40,642 bases of DNA from Candidatus Bathyarchaeota archaeon. GTDB lineage: Archaea > Thermoproteota > Bathyarchaeia > 40CM-2-53-6 > RBG-13-38-9. This document shows positions 242 through 36,487 of the stretch, one piece after another (the stretch's first letter is position 1; the number at the start of each line of letters is the position of its first letter). The stretch spans positions 1 through 40,642 of the forward strand of contig SMYQ01000048.1 of assembly GCA_007050885.1 (NCBI GenBank), in the 5' to 3' direction. The notes under the pieces are model-generated. The model was not told where the DNA came from and made no database searches. It was given only the letters and a program-made list of their open reading frames with translations. The position numbers and the translations under genes were made by a program.

Positions 242-703
242 ATGTCAGAGAGTCAAATTGAGAAGATTTTTGGAGCCATGATTGAAGAAGAAGTCAGAAG
301 TCTAAATTACCATTTACCAAAAACAAGAAAGCCCCTAAAGATTCTACTTAAAGAGAAAACTCCGTCAGTTGAAACTCAAGATGGAAGATCTATATTAATG
401 AAGAAAGAAGAAATTGCGAAATTATCTGAAATTGTACCTTCACATCTTCAGGATAAAATTCAACTTCCTATTATCATACAAAGAAGATTTGACCTTGGAA
501 AATCCATCTATACAGTAATAGGAAACAGACTCGAAGAGTTCACTTTAAAAAAAGCTCTTGAACTAAATGATCACGATTTTACTGAATATGAGAAAGAGGA
601 ACCATTTCATATTTTCAAACCATACTTATCGGAATTAATTCGTATGTTTCACACTCTAATTGTAATAGGTTTTGGAAAGCCGGAATCTCTTTCCGAGCTA
701 TAA
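242..703 (+). CDS. UPF0216 / DUF61 family protein
   Basis: A 153-residue soluble protein matching the archaeal UPF0216 (DUF61) family: EEEVRSLNYHLPKTRKPLKI near the N-terminus, then the DGR..MKKEEI segment and LPIIIQRR, all in family order and at the usual length. Its function is unknown. The start is an ATG. The 3' end overlaps the convergent rnhB gene by six bases (698-703). No catalytic motif or membrane segment is visible. Family membership is fairly certain; nothing in the context suggests a substrate. Confidence 0.8.
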   Translation: MSESQIEKIFGAMIEEEVRSLNYHLPKTRKPLKILLKEKTPSVETQDGRSILMKKEEIAKLSEIVPSHLQDKIQLPIIIQRRFDLGKSIYTVIGNRLEEFTLKKALELNDHDFTEYEKEEPFHIFKPYLSELIRMFHTLIVIGFGKPESLSEL

Positions 704-1364
704 TTCAGACTCTAAATTCTTGAAAGTTTTCCAAGTTCTTCTTATAATTGGCAGATTACATCCATCAGTCATGATCCATTTCTTTACAAATGTTCTAGTC
801 TTTGGATCTGATGGATATCCGGAACCAAAATCACCGTAAGTCTCATGGAGATCTTCAATTACCTCATCTCTTTTCTGCTTGGCAATGATCGATGCTGCAG
901 AGACGATAGGGTATTTTTGATCTGCTTTATGTTCGGAAATGATTTTCATTGGTAGACTTAGCTTCTGAATTATTTGACATGCAAATCTTTCAGGACTTCT
1001 ATCTGGAGCATCAACATATGCTATATCAGGTTTTAGTCTATCTAGAATTTTCGCTACGAATTTCACTTCCAGTTGATTTAATCGTTTTAATGGTTTTCCC
1101 CTAAGAACAATTGAATCTATCTCTTGAGGCGTTATCTCGAATAGCACATGTTCTTTTGCAAGACTGATTATTTTTGGTGTTAGAATTTCACGTGATTTTC
1201 TTGTGTGAAGTTTTGAGTCTTTGATTCCTAGATTAGAAAGTCGAGAAACTTTAGTTTCATTAATAATTAATCCTGCAATTACTAGTGGACCTATAATTGG
1301 ACCTTTTGGGAAGCCAAATGTTTGACTTTCTCCCAGCCTCGTCCACGCCAGCGATGTAGACTAT
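698..1364 (-). CDS. rnhB: Ribonuclease HII, interrupted by a 25-nt BHB intron
   Basis: RNase HII cleaves RNA in RNA-DNA hybrids and removes misincorporated ribonucleotides. Exon 1 (1364-1330) encodes IVYIAGVDEAG and the first two bases of an Arg codon; exon 2 (1304-698) completes Arg and continues GPIIGPLVIAG. The join gives the canonical GVDEAGRGPIIGPLV. Other catalytic residues are the Asp in YVDAPD and in GYPSDPKT; the spliced protein has about 213 residues, normal for archaea. Without splicing the frame stops after about 28 codons, so the product would lack all the downstream acidic residues. The start is unusual: TAG lies just upstream and no ATG, GTG or TTG precedes the first beta-strand. 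AUA at 1364 sits 9 nt after GGAGG (1378-1374). GTG at 1346 is possible but would delete the strand holding the catalytic Asp. It lies downstream of the THEP1 gene on the same strand. Confidence 0.9.
1305..1329 (-). other. BHB intron inside rnhB mRNA (25 nt)
   Basis: Minus strand reads exon TGGG (1335-1332), bulge AGA (1331-1329), inner helix AAGTC (1328-1324), loop of 8, GGCTT (1315-1311), CCCA (1310-1307), bulge AAA (1306-1304), then exon GGT. TGGG pairs perfectly with CCCA and AAGTC pairs with GGCTT (one G-U). Cutting after the second base of each bulge, the archaeal tRNA endonuclease rule, removes exactly 25 nt and restores AGA GGT (Arg-Gly) of DEAGRG. The outer helix is weak. The geometry and the exact frame repair argue strongly against a random indel. 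Confidence 0.88.
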
Positions 1365-1430
1365 CTAAATTACCCTCCAATCAGCCCCATGATAAATCTC
1401 TTGAATTCAATATTACTAAAAATATTCGAT

Positions 1431-2082: not shown

Positions 2083-3252
2083 ATTCATTCCACATTACCC
2101 TTCAAGACTAAGAGTGTTATTGAGGGGTCAATTAAATTAGTTCTGCCTACAGAGTCTGATCAAAAACCTGCGGATCCAAATGTTTTCTACAATCCCCGAA
2201 TGAGCCTGAATCGTGACATTTCAGTATTGGCTGCTCAGTGCTTTCAATCCCATCTTCAAAGATCAATTAGAATTGCTGATCCTCTAACTGGATCTGGAAT
2301 TCGAGGTCTGAGATACGCAGCTGAAGTAGACTCGAATTCTGTGCTATTAAATGATATAGAACCCGATGCTGTTTTGTTTGCTCTCCATAATATGTTGAAT
2401 AACAATCTTCAGGATAAGACTGATATTCAATGCATGGATGCGAATATCTTCCTGAATTTACATTCTATACCTGGTAAGAGACTAGATTTGATAGACCTTG
2501 ATCCTTATGGATCACCTGTAACATACATAGATTCAGCTTTAAGAGCCTTGATTAATGGAGGTTTTTTAGCCATAACGGCAACTGATATGGCTGTTCTATG
2601 TGGAGCCAAGCCTCGTTCTTGCTTGAGAAAATATGGGGGAAAACCCCTCAGAAGTGAGTATTCACGAGAAGTTGCTTTAAGACTTCTTTTCGGTTCTGTT
2701 GTGACATCAGCTTGTAAACAAGACATGACAGTTAACGCAAAGTTTTCCCATAGCACAGATCATTATATTCGCCTCTTCGTAAATGTAAATCGTTCAGCCA
2801 TAGAAGCAAATAATACACTCGCCGAAATGGGGTATATTTTACATTGCTTTCATTGTCTTAATAGAATGATTTTAAAAGATCCTGCTAAACGTGGAAGATG
2901 TTCCATATGTGACAGTTCCACTGCTCTGGCTGGCCCATTGTATTTGGGCAGATTGACCGACCCAGAATTCTGTCTTAACATGATAGCCTCAGCTAATAGT
3001 TTAAACAAGAAGTCTAATCGATTATCGAAAATTCTTTCTCTTATTAAAGATGAAGTTGAAGCTCCGCCAACATACTATACTGTTGATTCAATTTGTCATC
3101 GACTCCATAAAGCACCTCCCAGTCCGAATCGGGTAATTGAAGATCTAAAATCTCAGGATTATTATGCAACAAATACTCACTTTGACGGTGGAGGCTTTAA
3201 GACAAATGCTACTATCAAAGACATCATATCTGTAATGAATAAACTTAATTGA
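2083..3252 (+). CDS. trm1: tRNA (guanine-26 N2)-dimethyltransferase Trm1
   Basis: Trm1 makes N2,N2-dimethylguanosine at position 26 of tRNA using SAM. The ORF shows VFYNPRMSLNRDIS, the SAM loop DPLTGSGIRGLRYAAEV, the catalytic-type LIDLDPYGSP and a C-terminal zinc ribbon (CFHC...CSIC). An ATG occurs only at 2200, but the conserved N-terminal strand VIEGSIKLVLP and VFYNPRM lie upstream in the same open frame, so the true start is earlier. No ATG, GTG or TTG exists there. AUU at 2083 stands 7 nt after GAGGTG (2070-2075) and gives 389 residues. The gene overlaps the convergent rlmE by eight bases. Function is certain; the start codon is inference. Confidence 0.9.
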   Translation: MHSTLPFKTKSVIEGSIKLVLPTESDQKPADPNVFYNPRMSLNRDISVLAAQCFQSHLQRSIRIADPLTGSGIRGLRYAAEVDSNSVLLNDIEPDAVLFALHNMLNNNLQDKTDIQCMDANIFLNLHSIPGKRLDLIDLDPYGSPVTYIDSALRALINGGFLAITATDMAVLCGAKPRSCLRKYGGKPLRSEYSREVALRLLFGSVVTSACKQDMTVNAKFSHSTDHYIRLFVNVNRSAIEANNTLAEMGYILHCFHCLNRMILKDPAKRGRCSICDSSTALAGPLYLGRLTDPEFCLNMIASANSLNKKSNRLSKILSLIKDEVEAPPTYYTVDSICHRLHKAPPSPNRVIEDLKSQDYYATNTHFDGGGFKTNATIKDIISVMNKLN

Positions 3253-35815: not shown

Positions 35816-35933
35816 TTTCTATCTACCATCTAAGTTTGAGGATAAGCGACCAACAACTTACCGGAAACATACTTGTGATTACTCTTTTGTCATTTGGTGG
35901 GCCCGGTGGGATTTGAACCCATGACCATCAGGT

Positions 35934-35945
35934 CACTCAGATTCT
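35934..35945 (-). other. CAU-tRNA intron at 37/38, 12 nt
   Basis: Central helix CTCA/TGAG is perfect, bulges TAA and TGA; outer helix is CAGG/CCTG of the anticodon stem, available only after the 30/31 intron has been removed. The loop is GAATC, so the motif is compact. Confidence 0.85.
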
Positions 35946-35952
35946 TATGAGC

Positions 35953-35966
35953 TTCGACAAGATGTT
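35953..35966 (-). other. CAU-tRNA intron at 30/31, 14 nt
   Basis: Outer helix GAG/CTC, central helix CGGC/GTCG (one G-U), 3' bulge AAG; the 5' site lies in a 10-base loop (AGA plus ACATCTT), a bulge-helix-loop form. Removal joins GCAG to G31 and creates a stem pairing with CCTG. Confidence 0.82.
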
Positions 35967-35976
35967 CTGCCGCTCT

Positions 35977-36001
35977 TTCTGTGGAGCATCTTCTGATGCC
36001 A
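35977..36001 (-). other. CAU-tRNA intron in D-loop, 25 nt
   Basis: Contains a GCATC/GATGC hairpin with AGAA loop. Removing 25 nt between GGTC and AGAGC leaves an archaeal Ile-like D-loop. The central helix is imperfect (CTGG/ACAG with one mismatch; a shifted TCTG/CAGA register pairs fully but loses A21), so the ends could shift by a base. Confidence 0.72.
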
Positions 36002-36181
36002 GACCAGACTGAGCTACGGGCCCACAGGTTTATCCAAGAATCTTGAAAGATTATAAAACATTTCTTCTCTTTAAAGTGCTTAGAAGTTTAATTAAAAACG
36101 TATTCATTCAACAAACCAAATACCTTTAATATATCACCTAAATTTTGATGCTAGAAAGCCGCCGAAAATATGTGCCGCCGT

Positions 36182-36204
36182 TTACGAAGATATTCGTAGG
36201 CGTA
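36182..36204 (+). other. tRNA-Asn intron at 8/9, 23 nt
   Basis: Central helix CGCC/GGCG perfect, bulges GTT and TAA, inner helix TACGAA/TTCGTA perfect with GATA loop. Cutting after the second bulge base joins T8 to A9. The motif uses the acceptor strand itself as one half of the central helix. Confidence 0.9.
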
Positions 36205-36225
36205 AGCTCAGTGGTAGAGCAGCGG

Positions 36226-36254
36226 ACTCAACTTGATAGAAAGTTGAGGCTGAA
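36226..36254 (+). other. tRNA-Asn intron at 30/31, 29 nt
   Basis: Central helix CAGC/GCTG perfect, bulges GGA and AAG, inner helix CTCAACTT/AAGTTGAG perfect 8 bp. Excision joins GCGG to G31 and creates the anticodon stem GCGGG/CCCGT. Confidence 0.92.
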
Positions 36255-36261
36255 GCTGTTA

Positions 36262-36283
36262 AATTCTTTCTTAAAATGCGGCA
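36262..36283 (+). other. tRNA-Asn intron at 37/38, 22 nt
   Basis: Central helix CTGT/GCGG with two G-U pairs, bulges TAA and CAA, outer helix is the anticodon stem. The stem exists only after the 30/31 intron is gone, so this one must go second. The central helix is the weakest of the three in this tRNA. Confidence 0.82.
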
Positions 36284-36487
36284 ACCCGTTGGTCGAAGGT
36301 TCGAATCCTTCCGGCGGCGCCACAACCTTTCGGCACATATTTTTTTTGTTTACTGGATAGATCAATCCAAGGTAGAACACAGAATAAGATAACATGCTTA
36401 AATTTGCATCTTCTATCGTAAAATTTCTGGAGATAAATAATTTAAAAGGCAGATTGCAGGTTCTATAGCAACTATAAGGTGAATGTA

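Follow-up and report, generated by a model that had tools for sequence, protein, structure and literature searches.

We analysed a stretch of 40,642 nucleotides from a Candidatus Bathyarchaeota archaeon (contig SMYQ01000048.1), referred to here as the window. On its minus strand, 25 nt at positions 1305-1329 interrupt rnhB, which encodes RNase HII, an enzyme for the removal of RNA from DNA. The interruption falls within the Arg codon of the DEAGRG motif and reads GAC GAG GCT GGG AG[AAAGTCAAACATTTGGCTTCCCAAA]A GGT CCA ATT ATA GGT, where the bracketed letters are positions 1329-1305. A first-pass annotation of this DNA had described a frame break of exactly 25 nt between DEAGR and GPIIGPLV, and had expected translation to end early if the message is left unspliced. 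Both points were borne out: the deletion of exactly 25 nt yields IVYIAGVDEAG-R-GPIIGPLV in one 213-aa RNase HII frame that ends at 698, and the unspliced exon-1 frame runs into a stop about 20 codons on. The features of the locus, all on the minus strand, are the following.

1373..1378, minus: Shine-Dalgarno-like GGAGGG, 8 nt before the ATA
1362-1364, minus: predicted near-cognate start ATA
1330..1364, minus: rnhB exon 1, ATA GTC TAC ATC GCT GGC GTG GAC GAG GCT GGG AG; codons vary mostly synonymously across 18 loci
1305..1329, minus: insert of 25 nt, a predicted bulge-helix-bulge (BHB) intron that splits the DEAGRG Arg codon after its second base; same-phase inserts in 17 other genomes
1332..1335, minus: central helix, 5' strand, TGGG
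1329..1331, minus: 5' bulge AGA, predicted cut AG/A between 1330 and 1329; AGA in 18 of 18 loci
1322..1328, minus: inner helix, 5' strand, AAGTCAA
1311..1317, minus: inner helix, 3' strand, TTGGCTT
1307..1310, minus: central helix, 3' strand, CCCA
1304..1306, minus: 3' bulge AAA, predicted cut AA/A between 1305 and 1304
698..1304, minus: rnhB exon 2 (A + GPIIGPLV... to the stop); profile matches; dN/dS 0.12-0.16 against the three nearest relatives

The spliced protein matches the ribonuclease HII profile TIGR00729 (1.8e-63, 214.3 bits against a cut-off of 123.3) and Pfam RNase_HII (1.5e-42), and it aligns to solved archaeal RNase HII structures, including 1io2 and 2dff. In the alignment, its residues D8, E9, D110 and D140 correspond to D7, E8, D105 and D135 of 1io2, which we take to be the catalytic set. 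D8 and E9, the Asp and Glu of DEAG, are encoded by exon 1, which carries two of the four residues that are catalytic in Thermococcus RNase HII. The host gene thus carries both marks of RNase HII, a family profile matched over the full length and the catalytic carboxylates. Because exon 1 holds the Asp and Glu of DEAG, translation of unspliced mRNA is expected to yield an inactive product. The window also contains an RNase HI-like gene (PF00075; 17944-18294, minus strand), and RNase HII may therefore not be the sole RNase H. Two other classes of intervening sequence were considered and rejected: a group I or group II intron, since the insert is just 25 nt and an Rfam scan of the window returned two tRNAs only, and an intein, since these 25 nt disrupt the frame. 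No known mRNA element was found in the window by Rfam.

The RNA fold proposed in the first-pass annotation was recovered at the junctions. The TGGG/CCCA central helix and the 3-nt bulges AGA and AAA were found as described, and cuts after the second base of each bulge remove the 25 nt and restore the DEAGRG frame. The inner helix had been given as AAGTC/GGCTT; these bases do pair, but the helix is longer, 7 bp of AAGTCAA/TTGGCTT. A BHB in a single sequence is weak evidence, because the motif is common by chance and is not the minimum-energy fold. Indeed, the two strands of the 40.6-kb window contain 201 and 273 strict 3-4-3 BHBs (introns of 19-31 nt, at least four inner pairs), a chance rate that makes a general BHB scan without protein context useless. 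The minimum-energy fold at the locus is shifted by one pair (TGGGA/TCCCA, bulges GAA and AAAA), with the strict BHB 1.4 kcal/mol above it, and the 76-nt region folds with z = -1.25, 24 of 200 shuffles folding at least as well. Fold energy was therefore not accepted as proof of an intron. The improbable event is a BHB at exactly the position that the reading frame requires: when the window insert was shuffled, a BHB with four central and three inner pairs arose at the frame-restoring place in 0.00175 of the sequences; over 15 loci, this frequency was 0.0008-0.013 per locus.

Comparison of rnhB among relatives, a check suggested in the first-pass annotation, is what settles the matter and shows that the insert recurs at the same codon phase, being present in some genomes and absent from others. 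Among the matches listed, 17 other genomes carry such an insert, 15 of the 256 genomes of the class and two of another class. The nearest named relatives, Candidatus Bathyarchaeota archaeon RBG_13_38_9 (L001 in G001) and isolate CSMAG_963 (L002 in G002), are 90% identical to the window over about 5 kb. These two assemblies, the window and G038 share the identical 25 nt, and 14 further genomes have other inserts at the rnhB site. By protein search, rnhB was found in 28 of the 38 genomes of the order and in 224 of the 256 of the class, several of the matches listed beginning exactly at the junction.

The insert was also sought with a covariance model (R1, 13 rows) that covers it together with the exon sequence on either side. 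Both R1 and the alignment A1 were built on 13 of the 15 insert-bearing loci then known, two near-identical ones being omitted, so that the inserts of G221, G330 and G421 are finds independent of the model. On the window, R1 has a sole significant match at 1284-1362 (85.8 bits, E 1.2e-22; next E 0.26). It matches 186 of the 256 genomes of the class: among the matches listed, 15 genomes have matches of 73-85 nt at 65-85 bits and bear the insert; the remaining listed matches, all 53-54 nt long and none above 43 bits, represent an uninterrupted site. In the phylum sample, 219 of 398 genomes match, with six insert carriers among the matches listed, four of them already known and two new (G330 and G421); class and phylum matches were ordered by E-value, and those unlisted are weaker than those listed. 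G330 and G421 belong to another class, in which 35 of 44 genomes match R1 and the insert occurs in these two only; their nearest named database proteins come from 'Nitrososphaerota archaeon'.

The 18 inserts (the window and 17 genomes) comprise 13 distinct sequences, with lengths of 19, 20, 21, 23, 25, 26, 29, 30 or 31 nt. Length modulo 3 is 1, 2 and 0 in 7, 6 and 5 loci, respectively, and 8 of the 18 inserts contain a stop in the exon-1 frame. The position is invariant: all 18 inserts split the Arg codon after its second base, and the 5' bulge is AGA in every locus. The central helix forms all four pairs in 17 loci and three of four in G037, which has one mismatch; its forms are TGGG/CCCA, CGGG/CCCG, AGGG/CCCT, GGGG/CCCC, GGGG/CCCT and TGGT/GCCA. 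The inner helix has 3-10 pairs (just 3 in G035), and the contiguous outer helix is merely 1-2 bp in the 15 loci tested. The junctions therefore have the make-up of a cbf5-type BHB: two 3-nt bulges on opposite strands, with a 4-bp central helix. The predicted cuts join R to G in all 18 loci and leave the six-residue motif complete in 17, a Trp replacing the motif Gly in G037; the Pro after RG is replaced by Ser or Cys in G035, G222, G221 and G031. A purine follows the 3' cut in 18 of 18 loci, which is what an Arg codon of the form AG/R requires; the two bases preceding this cut vary.

Covariation was assessed in 13 aligned rows, for a structure that was picked from the BHB rule and is favoured by it. 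Standard pairs fill 94.0% of the pair cells, 20 cells show a two-sided change, and covariation scores 0.524. None of 500 shuffles reached any of these three values. The other two of the five measures, pairs with two-sided change (95 of 500 shuffles) and further pair types (58 of 500), are not exceptional. When the partners are slid by 1-3 columns, 42-63% of the cells pair. In short sequence windows around the 18 loci, the strict BHB is in every case less stable than the minimum-energy fold, the difference being 1.4 to 15 kcal/mol, and that fold keeps at least three central pairs in 10. Taken together, the recurrence at the same phase, the differing lengths and sequences, the shared BHB and the compensatory changes make a chance fold very unlikely and exclude an assembly error.

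We consider it highly probable that the rnhB insert is an archaeal BHB pre-mRNA intron, which bears out the first-pass annotation in substance. The tRNA-splicing endonuclease EndA is predicted to act on both 3-nt bulges, cutting behind their second base, the ligase RtcB would likely seal the rnhB exons, and the production of active RNase HII would depend on the tRNA-splicing machinery.

An alternative is that the interrupted gene is a pseudogene, or that it encodes a truncated protein starting after the insert, as databases annotate it. The 20 best database matches agree with this, since all are without D[DE][AS]GRG and either start after the insert or enter it in another frame (some are short and may be fragments), and so does the lack of a canonical start in 9 of the 18 loci. 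A point against splicing itself is the database protein P0127, from a relative of G330, which reads in frame through a stop-free insert. The substitution patterns point the other way. Exon 2 has a dN/dS of 0.09-0.31 in eight close pairs, and exon 1 is kept as a protein-coding sequence, given a pooled pS of 0.64 against a pN of 0.19 over 18 loci; judged by these values, both rnhB exons are under purifying selection. A truncated product would also be without the Asp and Glu of DEAG, and we regard this alternative as highly improbable. Ribosomes could instead skip the insert by translational bypassing or programmed frameshifting on an uncut mRNA, and the intact AGA (Arg) ahead of the insert in 18 of 18 loci would suit such a mechanism. 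A hop that re-pairs the same tRNA, as in phage T4 gene 60, needs matching take-off and landing triplets, whereas the triplet before the downstream Gly is AAA, AAG, TGA, ATG, ATA, ACG or ACA, and never AGA. The insert lengths cover all three phases, which no single frameshift fits, and neither process explains the covarying helices; we find either one extremely improbable. Finally, the nearest relatives are metagenome assemblies, which could raise the suspicion of an assembly or sequencing error, an outcome that the first-pass annotation had named as fatal to its reading. With the same 25 nt in four assemblies and different same-site inserts in 14 further genomes, the probability of such an error is vanishingly small, and the recurrence in 17 other genomes excludes it as a refutation.

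The enzymes presumed to process the BHB intron are widespread in the genomes that carry it. EndA (PF01974) was found in 17 of the 17 insert-bearing genomes, with two matches in 13, and the RtcB ligase in 13 of the 17; it was not found in four, for which genome completeness is not given. In one genome (G034:C118:5610-8417), the RtcB frame is 996 aa long and its profile match shows an extended gap beyond position 50, probably an intein. Two tRNA genes of the window are each some 50 nt longer than usual, with the extra nucleotides in the anticodon arm, and are predicted to be other splicing substrates; both were found by Rfam and missed by ARAGORN.

35898..36023, minus: over-long tRNA gene (Rfam tRNA, 34.8 bits, 126 nt)
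36196..36319, plus: over-long tRNA gene (Rfam tRNA, 35.1 bits, 124 nt)

The cbf5 genes of the insert-bearing genomes are interrupted as well. At 12 of 14 loci (L134-L138, L140, L141 and L143-L147), a 17-21 nt insert lies in the catalytic Asp codon of GTLDP, and its junctions form a BHB whose central helix has 4 of 4 pairs in 11 loci and 3 of 4 in G035. We infer that this site is the same base as the crenarchaeal cbf5 intron site. The cbf5 genes of the two remaining loci, L139 (G421) and L142 (G330), also seem interrupted; they show overlapping cbf5 profile matches, 5-87 and 70-322, the first of which holds a TGA and a TAG. The 12 cbf5 inserts fall outside the two crenarchaeal orders for which PMC2738675 reports the intron.

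Initiation is a further, unexpected peculiarity of the interrupted rnhB genes, on which the first-pass annotation did not remark. Exon 1 of the window has no in-frame ATG, GTG or TTG, and the ATA follows an upstream stop; translation is predicted to begin at this ATA, behind GGAGGG. An ATG, GTG or TTG start within 25 codons is missing from 9 of 18 insert-bearing loci versus 1 of 74 insert-less ones (Fisher p = 5e-7 per locus, or 7e-6 as 6 of 11 lineages), the 11 lineages being set by hand and certain genomes contributing several of the 74 loci. For G026, the canonical start in this count is a lone GTG, located two codons ahead of the conserved Gly. G031 and G037 each have an ATG behind GGAGG that is out of frame, so that a small indel may explain the missing start there. 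An upstream intron that would supply the rnhB start was sought at ten loci: none was found in the window, L022, L028 or L078, and the other six gave 1 to 5 candidates each, none of them common within the window clade. The 12 resolved cbf5 loci all have at least one upstream in-frame ATG, GTG or TTG. We read the start-less rnhB loci as initiating at near-cognate codons. One speculation is that weak initiation, 35 nt upstream of the splice site, may keep ribosomes from passing too early and leave the RNA time to fold and be cut, to the benefit of splicing. PMC4810243 states that ribosomes on nascent pre-mRNA can disturb splicing in prokaryotes. The expected start of the adjacent trm1 gene, encoding tRNA (guanine-N2) dimethyltransferase (2083-2085, plus strand), is also without ATG, GTG or TTG; an ATT is located there, 7 nt behind GAGGTG (2070-2075), and L001 has ATT and L002 ATC at this place.

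To account for the insert on a tree of 75 RNase HII rows, 17 of them insert-bearing, 8 gains or losses are required, and well-supported branches force at least 5 of these; G037 and, for their length, three 427-aa rows (L043, L044 and L051) were left out, some genomes are in more than once, and long branches meet (the G025 group with L045, the G330 group with L129). The insert is clustered on this tree (0 of 500 shuffles as low). The 8 changes mean that it was repeatedly gained or lost, as reported for cbf5. Two of the rows left out, L043 and L044 (G028 and G027), encode RNase HII in a single frame that exceeds 400 aa and holds a sizeable insertion around query residue 172-177, probably an intein.

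The BHB intron of crenarchaeal cbf5 pre-mRNA, for which Watanabe 2002 is cited, is among the closest known parallels. According to PMC4810243, archaea have pre-mRNA introns in no genes but the Cbf5 homologues of some crenarchaeons, and PMC7714728 lists cbf5 as the single further mRNA with a reported BHB intron. Yokobori 2009 (PMC2738675) gives the crenarchaeal cbf5 intron as 16-44 nt long and located in or beside the catalytic codon. The rnhB intron, at 19-31 nt, resembles it in being short, in its predicted cuts behind the second base of both 3-nt bulges, in its position in or beside a catalytic codon, and in a frame broken in many members and a patchy pattern of gain and loss. It differs in its host, rnhB, and in its lineages, which are Bathyarchaeia plus one other class; splicing of cbf5 is documented by cDNA, whereas that of rnhB is predicted from sequence. 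Most cbf5 motifs are described in the same paper as unconventional BHBs, whereas the rnhB motifs have a regular 3-4-3 core and a weak outer helix. With the introns of archaeal tRNA and rRNA, the over-long tRNA genes of the window among their likely hosts, the rnhB intron shares the BHB geometry and the presumed enzymes, but its host is protein-coding and offers no tRNA body for recognition. The BHB excised from the 5' UTR of the Haloferax HVO_1309 mRNA is, according to PMC7714728, an EndA substrate in an mRNA, as predicted for rnhB, but it lies outside the coding sequence, whereas the rnhB insert lies inside and disrupts the frame. Finally, the putative introns of the rudivirus SIRV1, cited in PMC2738675 beside further predictions, are also short inserts in archaeal protein-coding genes; they are 12 bp long and viral, their splicing is not demonstrated, and they may stay in the message.

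Among the papers listed in searches of the open-licence PMC literature, no title or abstract opening names an intron in archaeal rnhB or RNase HII, and papers that did match concern, by title and abstract, group II introns; a prior mention in subscription papers or preprints is possible. This agrees with the first-pass annotation, which knew of no intron in rnhB. The insert is very likely a real EndA-spliced intron, novel in its host gene and lineage, the kind of intron being known. If the BHB intron is real, rnhB would be a second spliced gene besides cbf5, and archaeal mRNA splicing would not be a one-gene quirk. A gene conserved over many lineages would again be split in its catalytic motif, and the question of why introns occupy active-site codons would become directly testable. 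An EndA-gated mRNA-splicing circuit in these archaea, which would control Cbf5 and RNase HII at the least by introns in their catalytic codons and hold ribosomes back on rnhB by weak non-AUG starts until the intron has been removed, is a far more tentative proposition that we think somewhat unlikely; if true, RNase HII output would follow the tRNA-splicing capacity of the cell. Splicing of rnhB would also imply erroneous truncation of many RNase HII database entries from these lineages, and genes of this type would escape ordinary gene finders. Among the database proteins, P0003, an 86% identical relative, is filed at NCBI under [Eubacterium] cellulosolvens, a record that is probably mislabelled or contaminated.
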